From Tomocerus qinae (taxonomy: Eukaryota; Arthropoda; Collembola; Entomobryomorpha; Tomoceridae): a stretch of 64,000 bases of DNA. The notes under the pieces are model-generated. The model made no database searches. It was not told where the DNA came from and worked only from the letters and a program-made list of their open reading frames with translations. Shown piece by piece: positions 5,753 to 61,378 of the stretch (the first letter of the stretch is position 1; every line of letters begins with the position of its first letter). The stretch spans positions 62,930,001 through 62,994,000 of the forward strand of contig CM034546.1 of the NCBI GenBank assembly GCA_020055645.1, read 5' to 3'. Made by a program: the position numbers and the translations under genes.

Positions 5753-7604
5753 AGAATATAATATTATTTATCTTCGTTTGTGTGTCGAGAGCCTGGATTT
5801 GTTTGTAACATTCCAACGCCACTGAGCCAAATTCAGGCTCTCAAATAATAGCACACCGACTTACATGAACACACGATCCAAACTTATAAGATAGGATGAT
5901 TACTTCCCATGCAACACTTACCCAACGTATTTTATTAGTTAATCGTTTAAACTATGAATCTTAGACATTAAATTCAAAAGATGAATCTAACGAAGTTACT
6001 GTATAATATTTATAAGTTTATAATAAAGTCCAGGTTAGTAAGAGTAATTCCCTTGATAGAGGGTTTTGAATACCAATATTAATACTAGGATTTCAGTATA
6101 GTATATAATTTATAACACTAATACAATACGGCATATTATTATGTTTACAAATTCGGTTAAGAAATGTAGTTTCCGATGCATAATTTATAAACTGAAGATA
6201 GTTATGTGTAAACAAACTCTAACTCTAACTGGAATAAAATATTTGTTTTACTCTACTAAACGGCCCAACAGAATCATTTCAAGCCACTAGTTAGTAGTCC
6301 TCATTTCAAATTCGATTTTTTACTATTTAATACTAATATGGGTAAGGAAACCTGAATATAGAATTATAATGGGTTTAAAAATTTTTGATTTGGAAGTGCC
6401 TGTTAAAAAATTGAGAAAGCTGTTGATTTTTTTCCATTTCATAAAAGTATATTACAATACAACAGTCTGCACGAATCCGAAAGGTAATAATTTAGTTTTA
6501 GTTTGAGGATTGCCTTAAGTCTAAACAACATCGTTGGTATGGCAACACTTAAGTTGACATGGTTCTGAGTTAGGAAGTATGTATCTAAATAATTCCGTGT
6601 TTGCTGCTTCTGTAATGCAGTTTAGTATCGTGCCTGTATTAAAGTAGCCTTTCTTATAGAAAATAAACGTATACAAAATTAAATTGCTGAAAGTTATAGC
6701 TTAATAAAATACTAATCCAAAAGCACGGAATACTATTGGGCAGAGTGATAAATGTTTAAATTACTCGTCCTTTCCATTAGAAGTATTGGCATTTCCTTAT
6801 ATGTAATTTACGTAAGTTGTTTTTCTCCTTAAACAGTTAATTTTCCTATACCTTGATTTACTGAGAAAGCAATACTGCGTCATATATTATGGTGATAAGT
6901 GTATAGACTAAATAAATTGGTTAGCTAGACTAGACGGTCTCTGTCTCTTGCTATACTAACAGTTTACCTGCATTGCTTTAGTTTATAGCCATACGTAAGT
7001 GGAATTGAAATGATTGTAAGTGATAATATGGGATAGGTATTTATGTTTTCTATTGCTTCCAGAATTTACTTGGATTTAATGCAAAGCAAAACATTGTTTT
7101 ATACCTATATGCAAGGTAAGCTTATATAGTTATATGAAATAAACAACTATCCGTATGGAAAATATATAATTGTGGATTCTAAAAATAATAGCTCTATAAC
7201 ATAACAAAAGGAACGCTGGTGCAAAAGCTTTGCCGAATAAATTCTTTTCTCTTTTCCATTGGAAGTATGTATACTTATTGTACTTACTTACACCTTACGT
7301 AAATTGTTATTTCGCTTTAAACAATTTTACTGTGTCTTGTATTTATTGAGTAGCCAATGAATAATAAAACACATATGTGAGCCAACAACATTCGATGTCT
7401 TCTACATTTAAACACTTTAAGTAGAACTGCAGAAAAAATCACATCACTTCTACTTTATGAACCGTGTCAGTAAGACCGAAATTATAATAAAATAAAAATA
7501 TAATTCTCTGTCCTTATTGTCGTTTTAAATTGATAAATTAGATTGACGGGCAAAGGAAACTACTTTTGGCGGATTATAGAGATCCGTTCTATTATGTAGC
7601 TATA
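5753..7604. promoter_or_regulatory. Upstream region of the chemoreceptor gene with two copies of a recurrent TTTCCATTRGAAG block
   Basis: No gene was recognised. Two versions of a recurrent block occur here, centred on 6768-6789 and 7250-7269. Core TTTCCATTAGAAGTATT is preceded 50-60 bp earlier by a GGAATACTA-type sequence. Other copies lie at 125-144, 975-994 and 10908-10926, inside or beside the duplicated blocks. The 7250 copy lies about 350 bp before the chemoreceptor start codon, so the block may be its ancestral 5' flank. A regulatory role is inference. Confidence 0.4.
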
Positions 7605-8970
7605 ATGGCTTCCAAAAAAGAACAAAAGAAAAGGATATGGTCAATACCAGAGGAGGCTTTTGACCAATTTGGGGGTATCTTTAGGGTAGGATATTTGTTA
7701 GGAATATCTCCTTATTATTGGATCAAAAGAGACCATGCTCTCAAGAAAGGAAACAAAAAGATCAGAATTATCACAACTGCAGTTCTTTTTATACACGCTC
7801 TAGTACTTTTTCTATCTTCCATATATTTCACAGTTCAGATGATAAGATATTCAACGAATGAAAACGAAAAATTGTCGTATATTTTCGGCATGATTATGGG
7901 CGGAGCTTGCTTCGGCTTTTTCGTGCTGGACCTTTTGTGGATTGAATATTCATGCGACATGGCTGCAATGGTAACCGATGGGCTGCATATCCTTGCTGAA
8001 TTTGAAGGTATGTAATTTATAATTAGTCTTTGGAGCAGTTAATTAAATTGGACTGTTTTTTGTCTAGGCAACTTTATACACAAAAAGGAAACAAAGCAGA
8101 AACAATTACTGGTTAAAATACTGAAAATAATGAAAGTATGTCCTTTCGTATTTCCCTGGATTGTTGTAATATTCTACCTCAGTTTGTACAGAAAACCAGT
8201 ATTTCTTTATGTGGAACTACCTGCCGAATATCAGCATTTCTCGTTCGTGATTTTCGTTGCCATGTTACTGTTTTGCATGAGCGCAACATCTGTCTGCATT
8301 ATTGTCTTCTTAATGGAAGTGCTGTTGGTTACATGTTTAATAATAGGCGGTTTGGCACAGGAGGTGAAGTAAGTTTTATGATTTCATCAAACACGTTTAT
8401 TTGTATATCATGCGAGTCCGGGGATATTTCTAACTTATTTGACATTCATTACAGAAATTTAATGATAATAGTAGTTTCATATTAGTGTAATATTTAAACA
8501 GGTTGGGAGAACAAAACTACAGATCAGATGACGTCGTTCGCCAGGCACCACATATAATAACAAAATATTGTAACATTTGCAGATATTACATACAATATCT
8601 TCAAGAGATGATCTGTTTCATACTCACACCCATTCAGTCGATGGTCACAAGAATGATAATAGTTAATATATTCATAGTTGTAATGTACACAAATGTTTTG
8701 CACCCTATGATTCTATTTGGGCTCTGTTGTATTTCCTCTTCCGTTTTTATTATCTAGTTTTCAGTTTTAGCTACCTTGCACAAAATTGCACAGATGTACA
8801 ACGACATTTTAAAAAGCCACTCAAAGATGTATACGTCACAAAGCACATACAATGTTAAATACATGAAAAGGTTCCTGCGTTCACAAAAGGAGATGCACTT
8901 CAGAATAGGGTTAGAAGACCCAATAGTGAACAGTGGTTCAAAGCGGTCCTCGTTTTGCAATGAGTATTAG
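7605..8970 (+). pseudogene. Seven-transmembrane chemoreceptor-like gene (gustatory/odorant receptor type), in-frame TAG
   Basis: Three exons fit together by GT-AG sites and phase: 7605-8007, 8068-8368 and 8502-8970. The frame encodes about 389 residues, typical for arthropod gustatory/odorant receptors. Hydrophobic segments lie in exon 1 (after the KIRIITTAVLF start, and around the GMIMGG stretch), exon 2 (PFVFPWIVVIFY and the long VIFVAMLLF to LIIGG stretch) and exon 3 (MIIVNIFIVVMYTNVLHPMI onward). After the stretch ending SSVFII the frame meets TAG at 8755-8757, then continues in the same frame into a cytosolic loop-like part containing KYMKRFLRSQKEMHFRIG, the sort of segment that precedes the last helix in these receptors. 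No final helix follows before the next stop. The start is the first good ATG; the frame is open further upstream, so an earlier 5' exon is possible. It is a recent pseudogene, a readthrough gene, or an assembly error. AATAAA lies at 9125-9130. Confidence 0.65.
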
Positions 8971-11964: not shown

Positions 11965-14900
11965 ATGGAAAATGTGGAGGATTCGAAGGCGAAGGTGAGT
12001 AAACTGTTTTGCATTCAACTTTGGACAGTTCGACACTATTTATTACTATAATTTGTGATTTCTAGTGCTCTGCGATATTTAAAGAAAATTATAGCCATGA
12101 ATGGTGTTTTGCGGCGCTCACTGCAAGGAATCTCGGGGATCAGTTGGCAGCTTGTAAAGAACTAAATCTTAAATTACGTAATTCATTTCGATTTCACAAC
12201 GGAATTTTGCGTCACTTACGTAACGTGGGGTAAACAATGCACGAAATTAATCTCCAATACAATTCTCATAGGCAAAATACATTTATTTGTGAATTAAAAG
12301 TATAAATATAGTGGTTAATCGTTTAAGTTTGAGAACTCATACATAATTCCTCAGTCAATCATTTAATTTTGGTGTTTCTGCTGGTATTTAATTTTTGAAT
12401 TCTGAATTATTTTACAGCCACTCTATAATCAATGATGATTGTACATTTTCCGTGTCATTTGGACTATTCGAAAGCGATGGCTATCTTTTCGATGAATTTA
12501 GGCGCTTTAAAATTGTGGATGTAAAACATTTCTTTGTATTTACAGACGGAACACGCTATTGTAAATCATTTTTCATAAGAATCGGTTAGTTTTTTAAATT
12601 TATGGCTAGAGTTTTAATAGTAAGTCTTTTTTAGGCTGGGATATTGTACAGGATGAGGAAAAAAGAATTGAATTGAAGAATTACTTCGCAAGACAAAGAG
12701 CTGGAATGTCTTGCGAATTGGAATATCTTTATCATAGTTCCAGTTCATTCTTGTGTGACAAAAACGGATGCAAAATCGAATCCGAAAACACAGCCAAAAC
12801 TATAACAGATTATTTCTGGAAACACAAGGACCGTATCTATGACTTTTACCACGAATTTGAAATTTCTTATCGATGTAAGTTATTATGAAACACAAATATA
12901 TTTTTTGTTATAATTATTATGATTGCTAATTATTATTTATAGGTTATTTAACTCCACCACCAATTGCCGTAGAGGTGGAACGTCCAATGGTAGCGACAGT
13001 TAAGACTGATGTATCAGAGAATGGGCCAAAGGTAAATGAAATTTCGGTATTTAAATATCCAAAGTAATTTTAATTTTTGTTTCTAGTTTTGTCAGTATGG
13101 GCATAAATTGTCATGGGTATTGGAGTGCAGCGATGGAAAAACTCTGGATGAACTAGGCAGAAACAGTCGATTAGCTCTTCATCAGGGAGTGCAATTTTTA
13201 TTTGGAATACTGAAAACCACCCCTCATCAATTGTAAGTCGAATATTTACTTATCAATACTATATGGCTAATTGGACAATAATAGGTATAATTTTACGCCT
13301 TTTCATTATGAATTAGGGATGCAGTTTTCAATACAGAAACATGCGAGTATTCTCTGACTTTGTGGTTAAGCAGAGACAATAGAATCTTTCAAGAAAAAGA
13401 TGGATTTCGAAACTGTATAATTTTAGACGTAAAATTGTTCGCGTTGTTCGAAAATGGAAATCTGCGCTACAGTAAGCACTTTTTTTTAACTCTATTAAAT
13501 TATTATTTGCCATGTGTTTTCAATTAGGGAATTTTATTTGTAATAATTTCTTTAAGGTTTAAATGAGATACAGGATGCAGAATCAAAAACCAAATACGAA
13601 GAGTATGTCGGTAGGAAAACTGGGAAACCGTACGAAACTGAGTATTTCTTTCATAGTTCAAGTTCTGTTTTGTGTGGGGACAACTTCAACAACTCTGTTG
13701 AAGTTGGGAGTGAAGAGATTCCAAGAACAATGACAGACTACTTAAAAATTCATAAAAAGAATATCAGTCGTCTGTCTTTTGAGTTTGACATTACATATCT
13801 GCTTCGTAAGTTTAAATATCGTCATTAGAAAGTAAATATTAAATCATAATGGGATGTTTTATATTATAATGTTGTTTATATACAGACAACAATGTGGAAT
13901 TGCCTCCATGTATAGTTACTAATGGCGATAGTGCAACAGAGAATAGTGTAAAGTCCAATACAGATGATCTTGGTAAGGTTTTTAAATCATACTTTTATTA
14001 CAAAATATTATTTGCATTTACTGTATATAATTATGTGAATATATATTCAAAACTGGAAGCATCTTTTAATCAAAACTAATTTACTCAGCATTATAAAGAT
14101 ATTACATAATATTGTTTTTACCTACACAGAGAACAGCTCCCCAGGAATGGTTACAGTGATTAATTGCGAAAATGTTAACGAGAAAGTATTGAAGCCAGTT
14201 ACATTGAAAGAAACCAAGGTGAATCAATACTAAATAAATACTATTCAGACAGACACTTAGTCACATAATATACTGATTTAATTGAATGCCAATTTGTACC
14301 ACTTTTTTATAGTTTCGTCAAGAGAAATTAGTATTTCCCTGGAAATTGAAATACAATAACCTTGAAGAGTTTTGTGCCTACCACCGAAACAAAACAACGC
14401 TTACACGGACGTATGATATAAGTCAAGCTCCGTATGGAATTCTGGAATCAATCCCTCATGAAATGTAAATACATGTAAATATTTATTAATTACTGGCAGT
14501 TACCTGACCATTCTTGTGCTTTTGTATATGTGTATATATGTAATAAATTCGTCAAATATGCAAAAAAGTACCCCAATATGTACAGCAGAATAGAATAAGC
14601 CCTCAAGTTGCGTACAGCAACTAAAAAACTAAAAAAACTAATTTTGTGATATTAATTGTGTATTAACAGAATTAGCTGCCTCGACATCGTAAACTTTGAC
14701 TTTACCGTGGCTTTTCGATTCAGCAAAGTCAAACGAATCTTCCAAGATAAAACTGGGTTTGGGAACTGCAAAATTTTGGATCTGAAGCTGTCCATTTTTT
14801 TCAAACCACAAAATCTACGATACTGTAAGATCCATTTCTAGAGCCTCAAAGTTCTAAATTGAATGTTGATATATCTATTTTTTGTTTGCATTTATAGTCT

Positions 14901-15452
14901 TCCAAGACACGCTGAAGAATTCAGAATTGAGAAACAATACAAAATTTAAGCAAATGCACGAACACAAATGCATAAGCAAAGGATCGACTGAAAAGTCATA
15001 CGACACAGAGTATTTCTTCCACAGCTCGTGTTCATTCTTGTGCGACAACAATTATTCCCGGATTAATAAGGTTGATGATGGAGAGACCCCAGGAACTGTA
15101 ACGGACTATTTGAGGATTCATAAGAAGAACATTCAAGAACTCTCCTTCATAACTGAAATTACATATCTTGCGGGTACGTCAAACTATTTTATTACAATTT
15201 AATTTTATATTAGTATATCAATAAGGTTAATCAACAAAGTATCGACTTTTTATACGCTCTGAAGATGACAACGACGAGCTTCCCAATCTTATACAATCTG
15301 AAAAGTCTCCTCAGTGCCAAACTTCGATCAGATCTCCTCCAGCAATCAAAATACAAACTGAAAGCGATTCTTCAGCATCTGCATACCAAACTCCTGATAG
15401 ACCTCCTCCAAGACTCACCTGCCGAACTCCAGTTAAACCTCCTCCCATGTAA
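11965..15452 (+). CDS. 14-exon gene for a 720-aa protein with three tandem copies of an unrecognised module
   Basis: Exons with GT-AG borders: 11965-11994, 12066-12229, 12418-12560, 12635-12874, 12943-13031, 13087-13232, 13317-13471, 13557-13805, 13886-13972, 14130-14218, 14313-14464, 14670-14824, 14898-15173 and 15265-15452. Every junction keeps the frame, total 2163 nt. Each module uses three exons with phases 0-2, 2-1 and 1-1: the first with a conserved W near its start and ending in GIL-type residues (GILKTTPHQ, GILESIPHE), the second with NCKILDLK/NCIILDVK-like strands, the third with EYFFHSSSSVLC, then TDYLKIHKKNI and a hydrophobic strand. Modules lie at 12066-12874, 13087-13805 and 14313-15173, joined by linker exons. 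The tail is proline-rich (KPPPM). There is no signal peptide or membrane segment, so it is probably intracellular. AATAAA lies at 15473-15478. The domain family was not recognised; a MATH/TRAF-like beta sandwich is only a guess. Confidence 0.9.
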
Positions 15453-15472: not shown

Positions 15473-15478
15473 AATAAA
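15473..15478 (+). terminator. Poly(A) signal of the three-module gene
   Basis: AATAAA begins 21 bases after the TAA stop, at a plausible distance for cleavage. Confidence 0.6.
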
Positions 15479-16486: not shown

Positions 16487-18865
16487 CTAGAGACATTTTC
16501 TAAGGCCGGGAATGAAACTTCCAAACCAGTGACACAATATTAAAAAACGTTTTCCAACCTTGATACAAACAATTGAGACAAACTTAAGAAAAATAGAAGC
16601 TGCTCGAAACAGAACGGCATGATTCTCGAATAACATTGCTATAAATGTAATGCCGATGCCAATTAGGTAAACAAATAATAATACAGTTATATTTGACTTT
16701 AAACCAATTGCCTTTATCCTCGGATGGTATCTAGGAATAAGTCCACCTTTATTTATAATCCATTGTCTATTAATAAAATGTTCCCAAATTGGTATCATTC
16801 CAGATTGAATGATAGAGTGCATTTTAGTATTTAAAAGACTCGAAAATATTTCATTATACAAAATCATATAATCCACTTGTGGCAGCAGATATTCCGTTCC
16901 TTCATAAAATTGTAAAAGGGCATGGGAAATATTTGATGGCCATGCAGATTTGACATAGAATCTGTCAAGATGGGAAGTTTCGTCTACAAAGGCCACTTTG
17001 TCACAAGTTGCCATGGCCATTTGAAATGTCACATGTGGGTAGCCTACTGGGACATTAATGTGGTCTAAATACCTACTGCGATTATTGTAAAAACTATTAC
17101 CACTACTACCGTTGTTTTTAATTTGAGTACCAAATCTAGTATCTTCATCAAGAATAAAATTATCTCCTTTAGAATTCAAAGGCTTCATCATTTTATAGTC
17201 GTAACTGAGTCTATTTTCACTAAGGAACGATGTGAGTGGAGAGTAATATGTAAAATTTCTTTCTAGCAGATCTTGAAAATTTTCAAGTTTAGTGACCGAT
17301 TTAAACGTCATGTAATTAGTGATTAGTCCTTTGTACCCATTTGTGACAATGATACCCATAAGAATGAATGAACCGATGAAAATATTGAATGCTCTCGATT
17401 TTTGTAATTTTTTATGTGGCTCCAAAGATATCTCGAGCAAATATGCATATAACAGTAGAACTGACATCGTGTAGTCTTTGCATTGTGTATGATAAATGAG
17501 AAAACACATCCATGCAAAATTGCTGATCAAGAAAACAATTATAGCCCACCACAAGTCAATCTCAAATGGACGTATGAAAACGTGAAATGTTAATTCTTCT
17601 GACATTCCATCGCAGGTTATGAAACTGACACTATCTTCTTTCACAGGGAAAAGCGATCCACGAAATGTTGCCACATCTGGACGGGAAGAGATTTCTATTC
17701 CCAGTTGCTTAATATTGCATTCAGAAAATTTAGAAGGTGTGCCAATAATTGTATCATTAAATCCTGAAAATAATATCGAAGCCACAATGTAAGGGACAGA
17801 ATACCGTTTTGTTATTTTCATGAAAGATTCTCTCTGCAATGCTTTTCCTCCAAGAATAGAAGGCCCCATGTGAATACATGTCTTTATGGGATGAATTTTT
17901 TCGTAGAAAAGTATTTTGTTCCTTCTTTCGATTTTGAAATCCACTATTGTCTTGTGTTGTAGTGGTACAATGTAATTTTGCTGGATGTTCTGACGCAAGT
18001 TGTAAAGCCTAGGTCTGATAGTTGGATAAATTCCTTGTATTTTCAGATCCTGACTGTTGTCTTTAGAAAACGAATAAATGTACGAATTTTCAGGCAAAAA
18101 GTGTATATTGTATCGAGATATTACAAATGGAATTTTGAAAACATTATCCAAACAAGCAAATTCAGTTTCTCCGTCCTTTGATGATATCTCAAATTGGTAA
18201 AAGTATGTTCTGTCATAATATGTAAAACTTGAGTATTGAGTAACCGTTTTAAAAAATTTATTGTGTTCACTTTCCTCCAATCCTTTAACGAAAGCTGATT
18301 TCAAAAATGCAGAGGCTAAATAAGGATCGGCCTGATTTAAAGCCTTGTATTTCTTCTCGGGATAAAAAAGAAAATATGATAGGCAATTTAAGTGTTTGTA
18401 AGCTAAATTCATTGTTGGCACTTTTTTGTAAAATATGTCAACAAAAAAATTTTGAAGATGTTTGAAATATTCATATGGTGGGTTTGCTATCATTTCTTCA
18501 TATATCTCATTCCAGTTCATTGCTAAGCCTAATTTCTTACTCATAAAATGTTCTATTTTTGCCCAATATTTAATTTGATCTTTAAAATGGTGTGAACTTG
18601 TATTGAAAAGTTCATAATAATCTTCTGGAAATGATTTCAACACAGTAGCTGCTCGAACGAGAATAAATGGTTGGTCAATAGACGAAAGATTTAGATTCTC
18701 TCCTTCGGATGTATTAAATAGAAATATGTAAAGCCTACAATTGCAATGTACTGTATTTGTTAAAGTAGATAAAACTTCATCTGAGTAGATTTGAATATTG
18801 GATGCTGTTATTTCCCTATTGCCACTGAATATTATTATAACTAAATAAAACGAAAACTGAAACAT
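16487..18865 (-). CDS. Divergent ionotropic receptor, intact, intronless (792 aa)
   Basis: A single open frame encodes a putative ligand-gated cation channel of the arthropod ionotropic receptor class, used in chemosensation at the dendrite membrane. The N terminus is a signal peptide (MFQFSFYLVIIIFSG). A long divergent extracellular part follows, then the channel block: TM1 after RPFEIDLWW (about residue 435), a pore-like stretch around LLYAYLLEISLEPHKK, and TM2 with GSFILMGIIVTNGYKG followed by ITNYMTF, where other IRs and glutamate receptors carry the gate. The second ligand lobe follows, then TM3 (ITVLLFVYLIGIGITF) near residue 735. It is closely related to the receptors at 37091-39466 and 50283-52694. 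Two motifs shared with those loci lie 229 and 481 bp upstream. The ligand cannot be inferred. Confidence 0.88.
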   Translation of the reverse strand: MFQFSFYLVIIIFSGNREITASNIQIYSDEVLSTLTNTVHCNCRLYIFLFNTSEGENLNLSSIDQPFILVRAATVLKSFPEDYYELFNTSSHHFKDQIKYWAKIEHFMSKKLGLAMNWNEIYEEMIANPPYEYFKHLQNFFVDIFYKKVPTMNLAYKHLNCLSYFLFYPEKKYKALNQADPYLASAFLKSAFVKGLEESEHNKFFKTVTQYSSFTYYDRTYFYQFEISSKDGETEFACLDNVFKIPFVISRYNIHFLPENSYIYSFSKDNSQDLKIQGIYPTIRPRLYNLRQNIQQNYIVPLQHKTIVDFKIERRNKILFYEKIHPIKTCIHMGPSILGGKALQRESFMKITKRYSVPYIVASILFSGFNDTIIGTPSKFSECNIKQLGIEISSRPDVATFRGSLFPVKEDSVSFITCDGMSEELTFHVFIRPFEIDLWWAIIVFLISNFAWMCFLIYHTQCKDYTMSVLLLYAYLLEISLEPHKKLQKSRAFNIFIGSFILMGIIVTNGYKGLITNYMTFKSVTKLENFQDLLERNFTYYSPLTSFLSENRLSYDYKMMKPLNSKGDNFILDEDTRFGTQIKNNGSSGNSFYNNRSRYLDHINVPVGYPHVTFQMAMATCDKVAFVDETSHLDRFYVKSAWPSNISHALLQFYEGTEYLLPQVDYMILYNEIFSSLLNTKMHSIIQSGMIPIWEHFINRQWIINKGGLIPRYHPRIKAIGLKSNITVLLFVYLIGIGITFIAMLFENHAVLFRAASIFLKFVSIVCIKVGKRFLILCHWFGSFIPGLRKCL

Positions 18866-19093
18866 TTTTCAAGGAAAAGTTTCTTCAGACTGTTATGAAT
18901 ATACTTTTCTCCCTAAATTTGTTCAAGTATTCACAGACAATCCTATTTAAATTTATTTAATATGAGTGATTTGAATTTTCAATAGAAAGTAGTATTTATA
19001 ATACTTATTGCCTAAATCCAACACTCTTAGAAAATCCTATTCGATATCGCTTTTTATACTCTATCAAGTTGTGCATGTTAACTTTTTCCAAAA

Positions 19094-21850: not shown

Positions 21851-21917
21851 ATAGAAACAATTTCACAAGAGACCAAAAATTGCTAACATTTTCGAATATT
21901 TTTTATCGATGCAGTTT

Positions 21918-22620
21918 AATTCGGTCCAATAAAGTCCAATTCGGTCCAATAAAGTCCAATTCGGTCCAATAAAGTCCAATTCGGTCCAATAAAGTCCAAT
22001 TCGGTCAAATAAAGTCCAATTCGGTCAAATAAAGTCCAATTCGGTCCAATTCGGTCAAATAAAGTCCAATTCGATCCAATAAAGTCCAATTCGGTCCAAT
22101 AAAGTCCAATTCGATCCAATAAAGTCCAATTCGGTCCAATAAAGTCCAATTCGATCCAATAAAGTCCAATTCGGTCCAATAAAGTCCAATTCGATCCAAT
22201 AAAGTCCAATTCGGTCCAATAAAGTCTAATTCGATCCAATAAAGTCGACCCGGTCCAATAAAGTCCAATTCGATTGGCAATAAAGTCCAATTCGGTCCAA
22301 TAAAGTCTAATTCGATCCAATAAAGTCCAATTCGGTCCAATAAAGTCTAATTCGATCCAATAAAGTCCAATTCGGTCCAATAAAGTCTAATTCGATCCAA
22401 TAAAGTCCAATTCGGTCCAATAAAGTCCAATTCGATCCAATAAAGTCCAATTCGGTCCAATAAAGTCCAATTCGATCCAATAAAGTCCAATTCGATCCAA
22501 TAAAGTCCAATTCGGTCCAATAAAGTCCAATTCGATCCAATAAAGTCCAATTCGATCCAATAAAGTCCAATTCGGTCCAATAAAGTCTAATTCGATCCAA
22601 TAAAGTCCAATTCGGTCCAA
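21918..22620. repeat. Second satellite array: 20-bp units, mostly alternating G/A dimers
   Basis: About 35 copies of AATTCGGTCCAATAAAGTCC, many alternating with AATTCGATCCAATAAAGTCC so that the effective unit is 40 bp. An interruption near 22245-22285 (GTCGACCCGG, then GATTGGCAATAAAG) shifts the register. On the minus strand the unit has no stop codon in any frame, so long repetitive open frames appear; these are artefacts, not genes. Confidence 0.97.
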
Positions 22621-37090: not shown

Positions 37091-39466
37091 TTAAGAGGGA
37101 AATATTTGGATTCTACAGCACAAAAAATTCCTTCTAAGGAAAGTAATAAAACCTCGAGGCAAGTAAAACAATATTAAGAAATATTGGCCAACATTAATAC
37201 AAAAAACGAAGGATAATTTTAAGAAACTGCAAGCTACTCGAAAAAAGGGCTTATAATTCTCGCATAAAAGTGACATAACTGCAATGCCGATTCCAATCAT
37301 GTAAACAAATAGGATTACGGTGATATTTGACTCTAAACCTATTGGTTTTATCCTTCGAGGATGTCTAGAAACGAGTCCTCCTTTATTAATTATCCATTGT
37401 CTATTTATAAAATGTTCCCAAACTGGTATCATTCCGGATTGTATAATAGAGTGCATTTTCTCATTCAAAATATCAGAAAATATTTCATTATACAGGTTCA
37501 TATACTCCACTTGTGGCAAAAATAGTTCCGTTCCTTCATACAACTGAGAAATGACGTTAGAAATATTTGAGGGCCATGCGGATTTGACATAGAATCTGTC
37601 AAGATGGGAAGTTTTGTCAACAAAGGCCACTTTGTCACACGTAGACATGGCCATTTGAAGTGTCACATGTGGGTAGCCAAACGGTATTTCGATACGTTGT
37701 AAATATCTGCCGTTTTTATAATAATTGCTACCATTGTTTACCATTTGAAGTCCGAAGATAGTATCTGCATTGAAGTGTCTGAGAGCAACCATACGCTTCA
37801 TTGTGTTGTAATCATATCTGAGTTTATGATCTATTTGTTCCGATATGGTTGGAGAAAAATATGTAAAATTTCTTTCTAGTAGATCTTGAAAGTTTTCATG
37901 CTTAGTCACTGATTTAAAAGTCATGTAATTAGTGATTAGTCCTTTGTATCCATTTGTGACAATAATGCCCATCAGAATGAATGAACCGATGAAAATATTG
38001 AATGCTCTCGATTTTTGTAACTTTTTATGTGGCTCCAAAGATATCTCGAGCAAATATGCATATAACAGTAGAACTGACATCGTGTAGTCTTTGCATTTCG
38101 TATGATAAATGAGAAAACACAGCCATGCAAAATTGCTGATCAAGAAAACAATTATAGTCCACCACAAGTCAATCTCAAATGGACGGATGAAAACATGAAA
38201 CGTCAATTCCTCTACCATCCCATCACATGTTATGAAACTAACACTGTTTTCTTTTATTGGGAAAAGCGTTCCACGAAAGACATTCGCTTTAGGAACTGGA
38301 GTGGGTTCTACTCCCAGTAGTTTTATTTGGCAATTATAATATTTATTTGGATTGTACAAGCCTAAATTTGTATCATTAAATCTTGAAAATAATATCGAAG
38401 CCACAATATAAGTGACAGAGTATTGTTTCGATATTTTTCTGAAGGATTCTCTTTGCAATGCTTTCCCTCCGAGAACATCTGGTCCCATGTAGATGCATGT
38501 TGGTGTAGGAAGTATTTTTTCGTAGAAAAGTATTTTGTTTTTTCTTTCGATTTCAAAATCCACAATTACTTTGTGCTGTAACGGTACAATGTAATGTTTC
38601 TGAATGCTCTGCCCCAATTTGGACGCTATATCGTTTAAACTTGGATATAGCCCTTGAATTATAAGACTGCTTTCTGTAGGAAATGAATAAACGTAAGAGT
38701 TTTCAGGCAGAAAGTCTGTCCTATGTGGTGACAATTTATATTGTACTTTGTAGATATTATCTAAACCAGGCAATTCGGCTACTCTGTTTTCCTGTGATAA
38801 TTCAAATCTGTAAAAGTATGTACGATCGTAATATGTTAAAGTTGAATATTGGTTCGCCACCTTAATCATATTATCCTCGGTTTTTACTAATCCAACAATA
38901 AAAGCTGATTTCAGAAATCCAGAAGCTAAATAAGGATCGGGCTGATCATACAGATTATAATTCTTTTCAGGAAAGAGAAGAAAATATGTCAGGCATTTTA
39001 AATGTCTGTAAGCAATATTCATTAATGGAACTTTTTCATAGAATAAATTAACAAAAGTAGTCTGAAGATACTTTATGTACCAATCCGGTGGTGTTTTAAC
39101 ATAAATTGAATACCACTTATTCCAAGTTAATTTAGGAACTAAAAATGCATGAACAAACGAACTTAAAAATTCCTTTACTTTATTATTAAAATGGTACGAG
39201 CTTGTATTGTAAAGTTCACGATAATCTTCTGGTAGTGATTTCATCACAGTAGATGCTCTAACAAGAACAAATGGCTGTTCAATTGACTTTAGATCGACAT
39301 TCTCTCCTTTGGAGGTGTTAAATAGAAATACGTATAGCCTACAATTACAATGAACTGAATTTGTTAAAGTAGAGAAGACTTCATCAGAGTAGATTTGTCT
39401 ATTTCTTGCTATTGCTTCAGAATGATACACAAAAAATAATGTAATTACTAAATGAGCAGAAAACAT
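37091..39466 (-). CDS. Divergent ionotropic receptor, intact, intronless (791 aa)
   Basis: Same family and layout as 16487-18865: signal peptide (MFSAHLVITLFFVYHSEA), divergent ligand-binding part, TM1 after RPFEIDLWW, pore-like LLLYAYLLEISLEPHKK, TM2 with SFILMGIIVTNGYKG, a second ligand lobe, and TM3 around ITVILFVYMIGIGIAV near the C terminus. The block from TM1 through TM2 is almost identical to the other two receptors, while both ligand-lobe regions vary more, as expected for duplicated receptors with diverging ligands. The 5' end and upstream flank were duplicated into 42164-43200. Two dyad motifs lie 252 and about 390 bp upstream. Confidence 0.88.
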   Translation of the reverse strand: MFSAHLVITLFFVYHSEAIARNRQIYSDEVFSTLTNSVHCNCRLYVFLFNTSKGENVDLKSIEQPFVLVRASTVMKSLPEDYRELYNTSSYHFNNKVKEFLSSFVHAFLVPKLTWNKWYSIYVKTPPDWYIKYLQTTFVNLFYEKVPLMNIAYRHLKCLTYFLLFPEKNYNLYDQPDPYLASGFLKSAFIVGLVKTEDNMIKVANQYSTLTYYDRTYFYRFELSQENRVAELPGLDNIYKVQYKLSPHRTDFLPENSYVYSFPTESSLIIQGLYPSLNDIASKLGQSIQKHYIVPLQHKVIVDFEIERKNKILFYEKILPTPTCIYMGPDVLGGKALQRESFRKISKQYSVTYIVASILFSRFNDTNLGLYNPNKYYNCQIKLLGVEPTPVPKANVFRGTLFPIKENSVSFITCDGMVEELTFHVFIRPFEIDLWWTIIVFLISNFAWLCFLIYHTKCKDYTMSVLLLYAYLLEISLEPHKKLQKSRAFNIFIGSFILMGIIVTNGYKGLITNYMTFKSVTKHENFQDLLERNFTYFSPTISEQIDHKLRYDYNTMKRMVALRHFNADTIFGLQMVNNGSNYYKNGRYLQRIEIPFGYPHVTLQMAMSTCDKVAFVDKTSHLDRFYVKSAWPSNISNVISQLYEGTELFLPQVEYMNLYNEIFSDILNEKMHSIIQSGMIPVWEHFINRQWIINKGGLVSRHPRRIKPIGLESNITVILFVYMIGIGIAVMSLLCENYKPFFRVACSFLKLSFVFCINVGQYFLILFYLPRGFITFLRRNFLCCRIQIFPS

Positions 39467-39717
39467 TTTATCGCAATAAAACTTTTTGCCGTTTTTTGAA
39501 TACCTTTTTAGCCAGATACTTGTTGGCTATTAACCCATAAAGGCTTGTGCTTGAGACAATACTTAATATATTTAGTATAGGACTTTCAATTTTTAAGGGT
39601 AAGTAGTAGTACTAATATTATTTTAATTGCCTTCCATTACAGAAAGCTTAAAACAAACTATATCCAATATTAATTTTGCTAATCTCTTTTTATTTCATCA
39701 AGGTATTAATTCCAAAA

Positions 39718-50282: not shown

Positions 50283-52694
50283 CTATTTCATGTCCATAAA
50301 CCTTTGAAAAAATGTATTTATTGTACAAAACGAAAAACTCCACCTAAAACTTATAGTAAATCTTTGAAACCAGAGAAATAACAGTATACAACAATTTCTA
50401 ACATTGGTACCTAACAACGAGACCAACTTTATCAAACTGCAAGCAGCTAGAAAAAGAAGTTTATAATTCTCGACTAAAAGTGCCGAAACTGCAATGCCGA
50501 TTCCAATCATGTAAACAAACAGCATTACGGTAATATTTGATTCTAATCCAATTGGCTTTATCCTCGGATGATGTCTAGAAATGAGTCCACCTTCATTAAT
50601 AATCCATTGTCTATTTATAAAATGTTCCCAAACTGGTATCATTCCCGATTGTATAATAGAGTGCATTTTCTTATTCAAAATATCGGAAAATATTTCATTA
50701 TGCAAAACCATATACTCCACTTGCGGCAAAAACAACTCTGTTCCTACGTAAAATTTTGAAAGGGTATGGGAAATATTTGAGGGCCATCTAGATTTGACAT
50801 AGAACCTGTCAAGTTGAGAAGTTTTGTCAACATAGGCCACTTTGCCACAAGTGGCCATGACCATTTGAAATGTCACATTTGGGTAGCCATAAGGAACTTT
50901 GATGTAATTTAAATAGCTACTATTTTTTTGGAAAGTTCCAGTACCATTGTTGTGAATTTGAAGACCAAATACAGTGTCTGAATCAAATACAGAAATATCA
51001 TCGTAATTCTGAGGTATCACTGCATCATAAATCCGTCGGAGTCTCTTTTCACTAAGTGACGATGTGGCTGGAGAAAAATATGTGAAATTTCTTTCTAGCA
51101 GATCTTGGAAGTTTTCAAGCTTAGTCACTGATTTAAAAGTCATGTAATTGGTAATTAGTCCTTTGTATCCATTTGTGACAATGATGCCCATCAGAATGAA
51201 TGCACCGATGAAAATATTGAATGCTCTCGATTTTTGTAACTTCTTATGTGGCTCCAAAGATATCTCGAGCAAATAAGCATATAACAATAGGACAGATAGT
51301 AAGTAGTCTTTGCATTTCGTATAATAAATTAGAAAACACAGCCATGCAACGTTGCTGATCAAGAAAACAATTATAGTCCACCACAAGTCAATCTAAAATG
51401 GACGGATGAAAACGTGAAACGTCAATTCTTCTACCATCCCATCGCATGTTATAAAATTAAGACTGTCTTCTTTTATTGGGAATAGCGACCCACGAAAAGT
51501 TTTTACATCTGGGAGTGAAAAGACTTCTATTCCCAGTTGCTTTAGTAAACATTTACCACCGTCGTATGAACCAAAATATGTATCATTAAAACCTGAAAAC
51601 AATATAGAAGCCACAATATAAGGGACAGAATATCGTTTTGTTATTTTCATGAAGGATTCTCTCTGCATTGCTTTCCCTCCGAGGATGTCAGGTTCCATAG
51701 AAATGCATGTCTGTTGAGGGAGGACTTTTTCATAGAAATGTATTTTATTCCTTCTTTCGATTTCGAAGTCCACAATTATCTTATGTTGTAGTAGTACGAT
51801 GTAATTTTGCTGGACGTTCTGACTCAATTCGTAATACCTATAATATAAAGTTGGATAAATTCCTTGAATTATAAGATCGCGATAGCTTTCTGTAGGAAAC
51901 GAATAAATGTACGAGTTTTCAGGCAGAAATTGTGCGTCAGATTGAGATAATTGACATTGTACTTTGAAGACATTATCCAAACCAACCAAATCCGTCCTTC
52001 TGTCATCATGTGATAATTCAAATAGGTAAAAGTATGTTCGGTCATAATATGTAAACGTTGAATATCGGTTTGTTGTTTTATAGATTTCATCTGAGTCAAT
52101 ATCTGCTAGTCCATTAATGAAAGCTGATTTTAAAAATCCAGATGCTAAGTATGGATCAGCCTGATCAAAAGCATTGTATCTTTTTTCGGGAAAAAGTAGA
52201 AAATATGACAAGCATTTTACGTGTTTGTAAGCTATATTCATTGTTGGTACTTTTTTGTAAAATAAATTAACGAAGGTAATCTGAATGTACTTTAAGTACC
52301 AATCCGGTGGATCTGCTACATACATTGCATGCATTCTATTCCACTCCAATGATATATTAGTCTTTTCTTCAAAAACAAAGTCATTTTCATGTATATCTTC
52401 TATCATTTTATCCTTAAAAGATTGCGAACTAGTATTGTAATGTTCAAGATAATCTTCTGGCAATGATTTAATGATAGTAGATGCTTGAACGAGAACAAAT
52501 GGCTGTTCAATTGACTGAAGATCAACATTCTCTCCTTCGGAGGTGTTAAATAGAAATACGTATAGCCTACAATTGCAATGTACTGAATTTGATAGTGTAG
52601 AAAAAACTTCATCCGTGTAGACTTGATTATGTCTCGCTACTATTTCGGTGTTATAGACAAATAGTAATGTTATGAATAAATCTACAAAAAACAT
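50283..52694 (-). pseudogene. Divergent ionotropic receptor with a single in-frame TAG (802 aa otherwise)
   Basis: Signal peptide (MFFVDLFITLLFVYNTE), ligand part, then the conserved block up to HVFIRPF. There TAG at 51395-51393 replaces the GAG that encodes E in the RPFEIDLWW of both intact paralogues. The frame then continues unbroken with IDLWW, the pore-like stretch, TM2 (ILMGIIVTNGYKG), the second lobe and TM3. The one base change is the only defect seen over 2.4 kb, so the gene is either very recently dead, read through, or miscalled at one base. A truncated product would lack all channel segments. The proximal dyad motif lies 248 bp upstream; the distal one is displaced by an insertion. 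Confidence 0.85.
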
Positions 52695-52941
52695 TTTTTA
52701 CACAAAAATTATTCCGTTGTGTTTAAAACTTAATTTATAATATATTTTTGTCTACATAATTATTTTATGTGTATACTCAGACAGGTTTGTGATTTAAAGG
52801 CTATTCAATATTTCAATAGTAGGTGGTAATATTTAATATACTTATTGAGTTACTTACAAACAGACTCAGAATAAAACCTTACCGGACATCATTGTGTTGC
52901 TCTCTGTTATTTCATCAAGATATAATTAATTATTTAAAAAA

Positions 52942-53627: not shown

Positions 53628-55257
53628 GTATCCATTTCCTATCTGGTAATAAAACTGGATTTAGTGCTATTAGAATAAATGTTTACCTGTTCATCATTTT
53701 TATATATGCACTACTATTTTTTTTCTCACAAACTGATTTAATGAAGTTGGGCTTATATTTATATTTTTTGAACATATACTTTATTTTTATTTGCCAAAAA
53801 AATTGTACAAAGAATAAAAATGATGGAATGACGTATTAATACCTTAGTAACAATGTAAACATGGTTTTATCATTTAAACGTTTACAACCTAGGTACAATC
53901 ATCGTTATTGAAATACTGATAATTGAATGATTAGCGAAAGACGACATTTTGTAATATGCGTAGTAATTGGATCAGCTATGTCGGCAAACTATAGACGTGG
54001 TGCTACTTTATATTGCCCCATGATTCCATTGTACCAGTTTGCACATTTTTTGTAGAATTACAATATTAGTACTAGGGCTACTAGAATTATTATAGTTATA
54101 ATATATCTAAATAATCAATATTTGCTCAGTTATGCTATTATAATATTCCGTTGTTGAATTCAAGTTCAAAAGTCCATTTCTGTCCCAAATTACTTATTTA
54201 AGTCACCATCGCTCGTCTGTAGCCTACTACTCTTTTAATATTCCTCAGCAAATCATGCAAATGTAGTGTAGTTAAATATTCACGGCATTGTTTGGCCTAC
54301 TGTACTTGTGTTCATTTCGAGAAATGAAGTGAAACATTAATAATAAACAAAGGTTAGACGAAGAATTCACGCAACAATCTTTAGCTGCTGCATGTAAGAC
54401 GAATATTAAACACAAACTAAGCTAAAGATTAAGACTAAGCTAAATAATTAATAGCCTAGCTTTAGCTTCTGTTGGTATGGATGTCCGCGAGCTAAAGTAG
54501 GCTTCGGATTAATGTTAAAAGATTGAAATTCTTGGTAAATGTATATAACCTTATCATATCGTGCTCTTAGGATAAGAAATCATCTATTATGAATGTCATA
54601 ATATAATATGTAATCTATTAAAATTTAAAGGACGGAGAAATAATTGATTACTATGTCCCACATATCGTTTGCTTAACAATAACAATGTGAAATATTAAAT
54701 TGTGGCCGCTTCAAAGTAACAAACCATTTTGCATGACCACTACAAAATGTAACAAGCCACATTATTAAAAAAATTGGAAATTTTGGCGCCACAACTGGTA
54801 GCGGTTTAAAAAAACATTTTGGCCATTTTTTTAAATGAGGCTTGTCATGCAAAATGGTTTGTTACTTTGAAGCCGCCATGATAATTTGGTATGTCACATG
54901 TAATGTTAATCAGACGATATTATTCTACTTTTAAGTCACAATTTCTAGGTTGTATTTAAGCCTGCGAAAGTATAATATATTATTATATCAACGCTATCAT
55001 TAGACCACAGTGCAGGTAGGAAATTTCTGATGAGTATAACACACACTACGTAATGCAATACGAAGTTGGTGAATAAAAATCACGGATGCATTACTGCCTT
55101 AATAATTTCAACTTCGTAAACTACAAAATATTTTAAGTAATAGCAGCAGGCTTTGTCAACCTTGAAATTATCTTGAATCTTGCTCTAAATAAAAGTGGAA
55201 CTTTTCTCCCCTCTTTGAAAACTAATTTTTATAGTCATATTTTGTACATCTTTCAAT
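53628..55257. other. Intergenic, with one MITE
   Basis: Region between two divergently transcribed receptor genes. Apart from the inverted-repeat element at 54704-54877, no feature was recognised. Confidence 0.5.
54704..54877. mobile_element. ~174-bp MITE with ~34-bp TIRs
   Basis: The left end begins GGCCGCTTCAAAGTAACAAA and continues to GCATGAC. The right end is its reverse complement, with one base different near the tip. The centre is AT-rich with TTTTGGCGCCACAAC. An older relative is suspected at 27650-27715. Confidence 0.75.
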
Positions 55258-57677
55258 ATGATTCAAGTGAAAATGAATCAAATGTTTTGGATACTCTCAT
55301 TCACTGGATTTTGTTTCAGCTGGAAATTGAAAGACGTTGCGAATTTAGAAAAAGATTGTTACGTCAATCTTATTTTCCAGGAAAACTCTTTTACTCCAAC
55401 CTGGGAGGTTTCTTTGAAAAATCAATTGCAAGAAATTGATATTCCTTTCGCATTTACAAATCTGAAAACCATTGGAAAAGTAAGATGTCCTTTATGGGCC
55501 ACAAAAAATATTTATCTTCATATAAGCTGCGATGCTGCTAAAGACGATGAACGCTTATATACTACTTCCCCAAGACCTTTAAGTCGTTTTGTTTGTATAA
55601 CACATATACTAGTCAACTTCCATCCAGCAGAAATTAATGAAATCCTGCAAATTAATTACATCAGTGAAACGATTTTGAAACAAGACGAATATATAATTGA
55701 ATTTAACAAGAATCAAAATCACATTAATAGTTACAATTTTGAAGAACATACTTCTGTTTATGTTCTCGTGATAAATAGCATTTTAGAGTTAGCCAAATCA
55801 GGTCACAACTTCCTTATTGCCAACCAAGTTACAATGATCAAAGAAGAGGGCCATGGCAGTTTCGATGTTACAAATGTATATCGTCTATTCTACTTTAAAC
55901 CGTGGTTTATATTGTCTTTGGAGGATAATGAAGATCGCTTTGTGTATTTTATTTGTCCACATGTAGTATCAAAATATTTTGACGTTTTTCAATATACTAT
56001 TATCCCTATGTGTAAACTTAACAATTGTTTCAACCAATCGCCCCGTCAACTGGCGACAAAAACTTTCCTTACAAAAAGCAATATTCTACAAACAGCCCGT
56101 TTGCAAATTTATAATGGTGATCATTGGAATAGAAGAAACAAGGTATTCAAAATTAAACCCCAACATCAGAAAATGTCATTTAGAAATGACTATTTTGAAG
56201 AAGAGGTAATTGCAGCCATTCCAATATCTTCAATGATGTTTCAAAGCTTTCCAAATATTACTTTTAGGATTGTTTATCAAAGGGATGACAGTTTATATAA
56301 TATTATAGATTTTAAGTTCCAAATGCAGTCTGATTGGGAGTATGGTGGACCTCACTACACAATAGTTCCAACAATGGAAGATTCAATTAATTTTATTTCC
56401 TGTGTCGTTTTGGAAGACGAGAGTCTCTCTTTCTATGGATACATCAGACCCTTTCACTTCTATGCATGGATAGGGCTTTTGAGTTCAGTCGTTCTAGTAA
56501 CTGTTTTTGTTCATGGCGTATTGATTTATAAAAATATCAACAATAGTCCATTTATTCTGATTTGCTGGGCGTATATATTAGAAGTCAGTTATCCGTTATC
56601 TACACAAGCTAATAAAACTTTTTGGATCAAATTGGTAATTGGTCCGTTGATGCTAATGACTATTGTATTGACAAACGGGTACAAGAGAATTGTCATTACG
56701 GATTTAGTGGAGCCACGACCAGTGAAACAAATTGAATCGATGGAACATTTACTTAATTTAACTAGTATTAAAACTCTTGGTGAGATGAAGGGACACAGTG
56801 AATACGATCCATTGTCGTTTACCTCAAGGATGAAACGTTTATTAAGGAATGTGCAATCTGGTATCTGCCAACAATTAGGAAGGAGGGACTGTAATGATAT
56901 TTTAAGAGGAAATATATCCCAAGTGGACCAAGATAGATATATTGAATTAATTAACAACTATGACAATGGATCAATGGTGAAGCCAGAATTTAAACTGCTT
57001 ATATTCTTCAAATGGATTCTCTGGAACAAACAGATTATCAGCGACAAAAGGTCACATTTTATAAACGCAATTAACAATAGGATTCGATTTCCTGTTGGAA
57101 TATTTAACACTAGTCCTCAAAAGTGGATTTCGCAGTGTAATAACTCTGCATTCATTATCAGAAGTTCACGTTTGCATCGAACTTTTGACGACTCTCATTG
57201 GAATCCACTCAGAGGAGGAGTTAAACCAGTCAAGACATTATATCAAGGAAATGGAGATAATCCTACTATGACTATGACCGTTCGCACTATACTTTTTTAA
57301 ATAGAAATATTCCCTTGTTCACTTCATTTCTGAGAGGAAAGCTCTTTAGTGTTATTCATTCGGGACTTTTCCAAAGATGGTTAGATCATTTCAAGTATCG
57401 TAATTATACAAGATGTAGATCATGTTGGGACAGACGTCCTCCTCGACCTTTAACTTTATATAATTCAAATATTGTCACAATATTTTACATTACTTTAAGC
57501 ATTTCTTCTACTTTTGCTGTTGTATTTTTTTGGGACATACGTAACATTTTGAAAACCAAAATGATACAGTTTTACTACTTTAGTGTCAACTATGTGCAAA
57601 CAAAAACTCATATTGCTTTCGAGTTCATTCACAATTTATTTGTGAGAACTCGAACTCCAGTTCAAATTTTTGAGTAA
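55258..57677 (+). pseudogene. Ionotropic receptor of a second subfamily, one frameshift near the 3' end
   Basis: The open frame 55258-57300 encodes a signal peptide (MNQMFWILSFTGFCFSW; start possibly at 55273), a long extracellular part, TM1 at about residue 400 (FYAWIGLLSSVVLVTVF), a pore-like segment (ILICWAYILEVSYP), TM2 (GPLMLMTIVLTNGYKR) and most of the second lobe. A stop then falls in a T-run near 57290. The lost C-terminal part continues in another frame from about 57315 to 57677 and includes LRGKLFSVIHSGLFQRWLDH and TM3 (IVTIFYITLSISSTFAVV). Against the paralogue at 63236-64000 the run is one base shorter, so a single-base deletion explains the break. It shares the TNGYK gate-like region with the other IRs but differs elsewhere. 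Confidence 0.85.
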
Positions 57678-58785: not shown

Positions 58786-60936
58786 CTAATCTTGATATCT
58801 CTTAGGAATTTTTATGAAACGTCCGAGCCTCGTCATAACTTTAGGCGTTCTTTCAGGAAAATTGTTGTCGGAGACTACCTCCCACCACAAAAATCGCAGG
58901 TAATCCCGATCATCTTCTTTAATTGCAATCATCAGAAAGGCCTTTCTTATATCCGAAGTCACTCCAATTTTCCCTTCTCGAAATCGCATCATGATAGAAG
59001 GTATGACATCTAAAAGATTGGGTCCTTTCTCCAGGCAGTCGTTAAGAGACGGATTACGTCCAGACTTACACGAGGCATCGAAGACGGGTCTTATCGGAGT
59101 AGTTGCACTTTCTGGTTTGAAAACTGCCCTATGTGGTAAATAGTGGCCAGAATTTCCTATTTCACTCTCCGGAACCTCCTCAATAATGCCCTCCTGTAAC
59201 CATGTTAGAAAAATATTGTCATAATCATTATACTTATTTAATGAAATCAATTTTGCTGTTGTTGAGTTCAGCCTCTTCTCCGCAATATTTCTATTATTTG
59301 GAATCTTTTGTTTTCCATCAATCCAGGGCAGACACACAGTATAACGTCCATCATCAGACTGCGACACCGTTTCCAGGAAATGATCTTTCACAGCCTGCTC
59401 CTTTTCTTCTTTGGACTTAATTTCCCCTGAATCGCGAATTCCAATTGTTTCCAAATTCCACAGCTGTTCCACTGATGCGTCTAAACCTTGCATAGCTGTA
59501 ACAGTCATTGACACACTTGATGATTCATCATTGAATCTAGTCGGCGACTTTCCCATCAGTGTCCATCCAATGTATGTTTCAATAGCAACCAGACCATCTT
59601 GAATTTGCTCCATTTTTCCAGTAAGAAGATTAGCGAGATCTTTTGCCCCAATCAGAAGTTCGATCCTAGAATTTCCTGCAGCCAGATCACTGATAAAAAT
59701 TCTTTTTTCCTTTAATCTCTGCATCCAGGGACCCTTTTGAATCTTTGGCAGATCACCACATATCTCATCTTTATCAAGAGCTTCAATACTTAACACTCCA
59801 CCCGCACAGTTAACTAACTTAACTTGATGCCTTTTGTGGGTCTTCGTATCCACTTGAACTCCCCCGAATAAAGTATGTCGTATTCTTTCTTCTCCTATTT
59901 TTGGCAATCCAATCTCCTCAGCAACTTCTTTACTTATGTAGGATCTTTGGGAGCCATCATCTAGAATTGCTCTTATTGTTTTCTTCCCCTTGTTGCCGAC
60001 AACAGTCACCATCAAAATCTTCAGCACGGTTTCAGCAGAACAAGCGAGATTATTAGCCAAACTAGCAATTCCACCTAGCGGAGACTGACCTTCATTAGAC
60101 ACACCTTTCTCCTTATGGCACGGTAGTTCAGGACACATTACGAGAAAATGCCTCCTAGTACAAAACTGACACTTAACAGTACATTTACATGACTGTGAAA
60201 AATGTTTTGAACTGAAGCAAATAAAACAAACCTTTTTCTGTTTGATCAAATTCTTTTTGACAACTAAAGTTAGCGTTTGAGCTTTCCAGCAGTCTTTGCT
60301 CTCGTGGTTCTTGTCACAAAATACACATTTTGCTCTATCTCCAACAAATAGACCAGCAACCGTAGGAACATTTTCATCCCCTTCCCTTTTCTGCTTTGCT
60401 GAGACTTTCGTTTTTGACTGATATGTTGGTCCATTGGTTACGTACGACAAGCGCTCCTCACCTTTCACCTCTTGACGTAAAAACTTCATCAGCTGATCTA
60501 GTCTCTCATCTGCCGGCTTATCTTCATTTCCTTCTCCATAACCGGAAATGGGACTTCGCTGCCACACTCTAATTACGTCCATAGGCAAACTTGACTCTAC
60601 CATGGGGTAGAGAAAAATAGCACTTGTGTTTGTAGATACACCCAAGGTTTCCAATGCCCTCAAATGTGATTCCAGTTCGTCGTACATATTACATAAAGAC
60701 GATGACTTAGCCAGGTCGGTGTTGACAAACTTCAATAATTCCCGAACGTAAAACTCCGACAGTAACACTTTGTCTCCAAACCTATCTTTCAGCGCTGCGA
60801 TGACCTTTGGGTAATTGGCAGCCGTCTGTGGATAACTATTCACCAGTTTACTTGCCCTCGTCCCTTCTGTCACGGCCTGCGACAGGTACTGAAATTTGTC
60901 ACTGTCGTGCAGTTTCATCGTCGTGGACCTTTTCAA
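58786..60936 (-). CDS. BEL/Pao gag-pol remainder: gag C-part, zinc knuckles, protease, start of RT fused to integrase tail
   Basis: A 716-codon frame. It opens with the DUF1759-like gag part (LHDSDKFQYLSQAV). Cysteine-rich stretches follow (CVFCDKNHESKDC; CFICFSSKHFSQSC; CQFCTRRHFLVMC). Next comes a BEL-type aspartyl protease (AILDDGSQRSYIS, later LLIGAKDLANLL), then the beginning of reverse transcriptase (PHRAVFKPES, RPVFDASCKSG, TSDIRKAFLMIAI). After the YLRFLWW motif the frame jumps without a break to a basic end (MTRLGRFIKIPKRYQD), which resembles the extreme C terminus of BEL/Pao integrase. The YVDD catalytic box, RNase H and integrase core are absent. It overlaps the upstream gag frame in another register, which points to a frameshift near 60915. 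Confidence 0.9.
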   Translation of the reverse strand: MKRSTTMKLHDSDKFQYLSQAVTEGTRASKLVNSYPQTAANYPKVIAALKDRFGDKVLLSEFYVRELLKFVNTDLAKSSSLCNMYDELESHLRALETLGVSTNTSAIFLYPMVESSLPMDVIRVWQRSPISGYGEGNEDKPADERLDQLMKFLRQEVKGEERLSYVTNGPTYQSKTKVSAKQKREGDENVPTVAGLFVGDRAKCVFCDKNHESKDCWKAQTLTLVVKKNLIKQKKVCFICFSSKHFSQSCKCTVKCQFCTRRHFLVMCPELPCHKEKGVSNEGQSPLGGIASLANNLACSAETVLKILMVTVVGNKGKKTIRAILDDGSQRSYISKEVAEEIGLPKIGEERIRHTLFGGVQVDTKTHKRHQVKLVNCAGGVLSIEALDKDEICGDLPKIQKGPWMQRLKEKRIFISDLAAGNSRIELLIGAKDLANLLTGKMEQIQDGLVAIETYIGWTLMGKSPTRFNDESSSVSMTVTAMQGLDASVEQLWNLETIGIRDSGEIKSKEEKEQAVKDHFLETVSQSDDGRYTVCLPWIDGKQKIPNNRNIAEKRLNSTTAKLISLNKYNDYDNIFLTWLQEGIIEEVPESEIGNSGHYLPHRAVFKPESATTPIRPVFDASCKSGRNPSLNDCLEKGPNLLDVIPSIMMRFREGKIGVTSDIRKAFLMIAIKEDDRDYLRFLWWEVVSDNNFPERTPKVMTRLGRFIKIPKRYQD

Positions 60937-61378
60937 ACTGTGACCAAAAACTAAGCCAATTCTTTAATTCTCCATAAAACTTTTTGATTTCAATCTTTGG
61001 AAATTTATATGCACGTTTCTGATTTAAACCTGATACAGCTGATCCGAAATCACTTGGCGTAGGACTTGTGGGTCGCACAACTGTTTTTCCAAGAACTTCA
61101 TTAATATTCAAAAGAGATTCCTTAATTTTGTCTTTGTAATGCTCGATGGCCAGACTTTCAGCTTCATAATCATCTTCTGAACAGTCTTCATCTAAAAGTA
61201 GATCCAAAATTTTACGGTCAAGTTCCTCCAGTTCCAACGCCTTCTCTTCCAATTTCTTCAATTTCAGACGAAGGACTTTATTATTGGCAGGTACGGTCGT
61301 CAGTTCCGCTTCTACTTCGTTAATTGTTTTGGTAATGGAACTACGCACCGGGGCACGAGCTTTCCTTAGCCGATCCAT
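60899..61378 (-). CDS. BEL/Pao gag N-terminal part, frame-broken
   Basis: It starts at the ATG giving MDRLRKARAPVRSSITKTIN, with a coiled-coil-like KLKKLEEKALELEELDRK segment, then the beginning of the DUF1759 region (KIEIKKFYGELKNWLSFWSQ). It ends shortly after at a TGA at 60899, while the continuation lies in the other frame. A one- or two-base change accounts for the break. Confidence 0.85.
   Translation of the reverse strand: MDRLRKARAPVRSSITKTINEVEAELTTVPANNKVLRLKLKKLEEKALELEELDRKILDLLLDEDCSEDDYEAESLAIEHYKDKIKESLLNINEVLGKTVVRPTSPTPSDFGSAVSGLNQKRAYKFPKIEIKKFYGELKNWLSFWSQFEKVHDDETARQ

Follow-up and report, generated by a model that had tools for sequence, protein, structure and literature searches.

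Scaffold proteins whose tandem repeats arose through exon duplication are a known general class. Two further systems offer themselves for comparison with the gene described here, i.e. the MATH domain (PF00917), as in SPOP and USP7, and the TRAF-like domain of SINA/SIAH proteins. The SIAH1 domain has the same fold as the MATH/TRAF domains, and MATH domains carry an early F/Y-x-W-x-I strand.

The gene lies in a 64-kb stretch (the window, C1:62930001-62994000) of the 334-Mb genome of Tomocerus qinae. Rebuilt from sequence, it has 14 exons and 13 GT-AG introns on the plus strand at window positions 11965-15452. A single open frame runs from the ATG at 11965 to the TAA at 15452, with no stop across the 2187 nt of joined exons, and the product is 728 aa in length. 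The original prediction of 14 exons with consensus splice sites and no frame conflict therefore holds; its figure of 720 aa was 8 residues short. The exons are as follows, with the phases at which each begins and ends.

11965-11994, plus strand: exon 1, with the ATG, encoding MENVEDSKAK and ending in phase 0
12066-12229, plus strand: exon 2, first exon of module 1, phase 0 to 2
12418-12584, plus strand: exon 3, second exon of module 1, phase 2 to 1
12635-12874, plus strand: exon 4, third exon of module 1, phase 1 to 1, with HSSSSFLC and TDYFWKHKDRI
12943-13031, plus strand: exon 5, linker with Pro, phase 1 to 0
13087-13232, plus strand: exon 6, first exon of module 2, phase 0 to 2, with GILKTTPHQ close to the exon end
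13317-13471, plus strand: exon 7, second exon of module 2, phase 2 to 1, with NCIILDVK; poorer acceptor
13557-13805, plus strand: exon 8, third exon of module 2, phase 1 to 1, with HSSSSVLC and TDYLKIHKKNI
13886-13972, plus strand: exon 9, linker, phase 1 to 1
14130-14218, plus strand: exon 10, linker, phase 1 to 0
14313-14464, plus strand: exon 11, first exon of module 3, phase 0 to 2
14670-14824, plus strand: exon 12, second exon of module 3, phase 2 to 1, with NCKILDLK
14898-15173, plus strand: exon 13, third exon of module 3, phase 1 to 1, with HSSCSFLC and TDYLRIHKKNI
15265-15452, plus strand: exon 14, tail rich in Ser and Pro, with the stop; weak acceptor

T-rich tracts precede most acceptors, and the pyrimidine tracts are poorer (last 15 bases) at exons 7 and 14. 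An AATAAA follows exon 14 at 15473-15478, which carries little weight since the DNA is AT-rich.

The product contains three homologous modules, of 190, 183 and 194 aa, which come from exons 2-4, 6-8 and 11-13, respectively. The phases 0-2, 2-1 and 1-1 recur exactly in the three triplets, as had been predicted, and each module has its two internal introns at alignment columns 55 and 115. Pairwise local alignment gives identities of 34.9% (59/169), 37.5% (48/128) and 44.4% (64/144), and in each of the three pairs the real score is reached by 0 of 2000 shuffles. At the level of single exons, none of 1000 shuffles attains the score of pair 3/7, 7/12, 4/8, 4/13 or 8/13, and 93 of 1000 attain that of pair 3/12. 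Conservation is much lower in the first exons: pair 6/11 is matched by 3 of 1000 shuffles, 2/6 by 27 and 2/11 by 528, so that the last is not above chance. In all six pairings among second or third exons, codon position 3 is the most divergent (0.51-0.63 vs 0.28-0.50), the pattern that selection on a protein would leave. The first exons show it in 2/11, tie in 2/6 and do not show it in 6/11. No further copies of the module were seen within the 64-kb window, where the best non-self match has an E of 0.33.

A second gene with a single module is found about 112 kb away, on the minus strand at C1:63057137-63058369. It has five exons, four introns that are all GT-AG, and a product of 218 aa that includes one module of 181 aa. 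As in the three-module gene, the first exon is short, holds the ATG and ends in phase 0; the triplet follows with phases 0-2, 2-1 and 1-1, and a tail exon is entered in phase 1. The module of this paralogue (module 4) matches a profile of the other three with 99.3% probability and an E of 4.1e-20. It is identical to modules 1, 2 and 3 at 59/169, 62/163 and 53/170 positions, respectively, and none of 2000 shuffles attains any of the three scores. The genome was searched with modules 1, 2, 3 and 4 and the best candidates were scored, which yields at least two genes and at least four modules. Among the matches listed, the places found are the exons of the window gene, the paralogue and one place at chance level. 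The latter, C1:51584076-51584471 (22% match, E 1.34), was dropped; its set of open reading frames resembles, by eye, a multi-pass membrane protein. The small family of a three-module and a single-module gene is thus real, and because a single-module gene with the same phases is present in the same genome, the module is a unit that duplicates.

The splice sites of the gene model were picked by hand and the acceptors of exons 7 and 14 are weak, which might be taken to mean that the model strings exons together by chance or describes a pseudogene. This is very hard to credit in view of the phases and intron columns shared by three modules, the absence of stops and the codon-position signature of the second and third exons. 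The separate gene with the same phases speaks against it as well, and its layout lends independent support to the model. The three-module gene is a genuine protein-coding gene, and the earlier observation is confirmed.

The original prediction also held that a whole exon triplet had been duplicated. This is supported, and the single-module gene, which shares the phases, strengthens it, but the triplet cannot be the whole of the copied unit. It opens in phase 0 and closes in phase 1, which makes an in-frame copy of the triplet alone impossible; once exon 5, or the pair of exons 9 and 10, is added as linker, it runs from phase 0 to phase 0. The exon phases thus imply that the copied unit was the triplet plus its linker. 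The probable origin of the three-module gene is that this phase 0-to-0 unit was copied in frame more than once, in an ancestor that resembled the five-exon single-module gene. A length of 89 nt is common to exon 5, exon 10 and the tail exon of the paralogue. A common ancestry of linker exons 5, 9, 10 and 14 and the paralogue tail exon is unsupported by shuffles (best pair 9/14, 23 of 1000). The locus offers a clean example of protein growth by the copying of a multi-exon domain unit, and with a one-module relative surviving 112 kb away, the one-module and three-module states can be compared within one genome.

The alignment of the four modules has 19 invariant columns: G-I-L; I-x-D-x-K; F; R; Y; H; S; T-x-T-x-Y-x3-H-K-x2-I; and I-x-Y. 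Sixteen of these lie within or past the I-x-D-x-K stretch, and 12 are D, K, R, Y, H, S or T. The landmarks named in the original prediction are retained in part when the paralogue is included. GIL is present in all four modules, but NCxILDxK is found as written in two of four, and the part common to all is I-x-D-x-K. HSSxSxLC occurs in three of four, the fourth retaining the H and one S, and TDYxxxHKxxI also in three of four, the fourth having TEY. Perhaps the conserved polar set (I-x-D-x-K, H, S and T-x-T-[DE]-Y-x3-H-K) forms part of a binding surface or takes part in core hydrogen bonding.

The domain had been described as one that could not be placed, and at the level of sequence it is unplaced by Pfam, NCBIfam, PHROGs and PDB sequences. 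Pfam searches at E<=10 with the whole protein, the three window modules and the paralogue gave chance-level matches at most; Sushi (E 1.1), DUF507 (E 0.07) and Major_capside (E 0.14) were taken as such. The three window modules have no match in NCBIfam, and their three matches in PHROGs (E 0.1-0.26) were also taken as chance. A three-module profile matches no PDB sequence; module 2 matches two circumsporozoite-fusion chains (E 0.25 and 0.42), again taken as chance. Viral and prokaryote contigs have no relative within reach of the pattern pre-filters, as expected of an animal gene, and nothing on the three-module gene was found in the open-licence papers of PubMed Central. Among eukaryotic genomes and proteomes, the searches covered the genome of the window itself. 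It is common for genes this divergent to have orthologues elsewhere in their order or class. There is about an even chance that the gene simply belongs to some uncharacterised orthogroup of arthropods in public protein databases, its domain possibly recognisable from closer relatives. The curated libraries searched (Pfam, NCBIfam and PHROGs) have no matching model.

The MATH/TRAF class was named at the outset as the known domain that the modules might turn out to be. Strand order and module length appear MATH-like by eye, an [ED]-I-[ST]-Y strand closes the modules, and modules 1-3 have an early W; the fourth module has no such W. In BLASTP, module 2 aligns collinearly with the TRAF-like domain of SIAH1 over 75 columns with 28% identity (E 3.5), a match ranked second, below one of six residues. 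A MATH match is absent from Pfam at E<=10, and profile-profile probabilities are 0.1-6.7% in local and <0.1% in global mode. The three-module profile gives local probabilities of 0.1-0.6% (global <0.1%) against SPOP, against SPOP+USP7+TRAF2+TRAF6 and against SIAH1. With the four-module profile the values are 6.7% for SPOP, 0.14% for SPOP+USP7+TRAF2+TRAF6 and 0.35% for SIAH1; the 6.7% match to SPOP covers 19 columns and aligns the early W of the modules with the second W of SPOP. SIAH1 against the module profiles gives 0.2-0.35% in hhalign local mode. Shuffles reach the score against the three-module profile in 26 of 150 cases for SIAH1 and in 112 of 150 for SPOP, and the alignment with SINA, suggestive by eye, does no better than shuffles. 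As positive controls, each of SPOP, USP7, TRAF2 and TRAF6 matches the other three at 51-98%, and module 4 matches modules 1-3 at 99%.

MATH membership by sequence was therefore rejected, given neither a Pfam match nor profile-profile support, and a canonical MATH identity of the modules is not supported by the sequence comparisons. It should be pointed out that SIAH1 itself scores 0.09% against SPOP, USP7, TRAF2 and TRAF6, and a TRAF pair 0.29% against SIAH1. The profile method thus misses SIAH1 vs TRAF, so that the test would overlook a TRAF-type fold as remote as that of SIAH and the negative result is not decisive. The fold, called unrecognised in the original prediction, may yet be a known one, and the domain is unplaced rather than demonstrably new. 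Pfam finds no BTB domain in the 728 aa protein or the 218-aa paralogue, and no RING or SIAH-type zinc fingers in the 728 aa protein. The modules could be strongly diverged TRAF-type beta-sandwiches of the MATH or SINA class, and the protein an adaptor that lacks BTB and RING and binds substrates or receptors through its three recognition domains, a reading that we regard as possible but doubtful. If the fold is a TRAF sandwich, it would show fold drift beyond the reach of profile searches.

The architecture itself is plain from the exon structure, the homology of the modules and the layout that the second gene shares. A beta-rich domain is probable: a crude propensity estimate, of little weight, gives 36% strand and 17% helix, compared with 34% and 29% for the SPOP control. 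The N-terminus of either gene is by eye unlike a signal peptide, and the three-module protein would therefore be intracellular. Its architecture suggests the role of a scaffold, and by analogy with repeat scaffolds, the three copies might bind a partner or partners with avidity. The reading that we prefer, with an evenly balanced chance of being correct, is of three tandem domains of ~185 residues with short Pro/Ser linkers, produced by phase 0-to-0 copying, which together make an intracellular multivalent binding scaffold of a diverging beta-rich domain.

Could the modules instead be enzymes or metal-binding domains, the invariant D, K, H, S, T, Y and H-K being catalytic or ligand residues? 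A conserved polar cluster is equally compatible with an active site, and polar residues of this kind (R included) occupy 12 of the 19 invariant columns. However, the modules match no enzyme or receptor family in Pfam or NCBIfam, and the fourth module has no HSSxSxLC. Three copies kept in one chain are also more typical of binding repeats, and an enzyme or metal-binding role appears improbable. A further reading, also unlikely, is that the domain is restricted to one lineage and its fold is new or strongly remodelled; it would belong to a two-gene family in a chemoreceptor-rich region, in which triplet duplication made a single-domain protein trivalent. Such a fold, if indeed new, would have been invented within the lineage.

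An array of intronless open reading frames that look like ionotropic receptors by eye is present in the window at 16487-18868 (minus), 37091-39526 (minus), 50283-52697 (minus), 55219-57677 (plus) and 63236-64000 (minus). The frame at 50283-52697 has one in-frame stop, and that at 55219-57677 a frame break. Pfam gives no receptor match for 16487-18865, 37091-39526 or 55219-57300, and a sub-threshold match to Calsequestrin for 16487-18865 (E 4.8e-4). An exon-like open reading frame at 7542-8012 (plus) matches the 7tm_7 gustatory/chemosensory receptors below the curated cut-off (E 2e-4). The frame at 58786-60963 (minus) is of retroelement type, with DUF1759 (E 5.7e-12) and an aspartyl protease (E 2.2e-5) in Pfam, and is presumably BEL/Pao-like. 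Repetitive open reading frames at 21916-22386 (minus) come from a tandem repeat (LDRIGLYWIELDFIGPNW-like) with two frames open. The paralogue adjoins a pair of open reading frames, ionotropic-receptor-like by eye and split over two frames, at L008 1686-3898 (6004-8216 of the reverse complement).

With respect to described systems, the modules resemble the MATH domain in length class, in being beta-rich by crude propensity and in the early W of three of the four modules, but they differ in that there is no Pfam match, no profile support and no BTB or protease domain. The likeness to the SINA/SIAH TRAF-like domain is the collinear but insignificant 28% identity over 75 columns, obtained by BLASTP with module 2 as the one module compared. 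Here the differences are that the three-module profile does not rise above shuffles, that zinc-finger and RING matches are absent, and that the modules run ~80 residues past the matched stretch. Tandem-repeat scaffold proteins made by exon duplication share with this gene the duplication of whole-module exons with phases kept, although the module here matches no repeat domain catalogued in Pfam.
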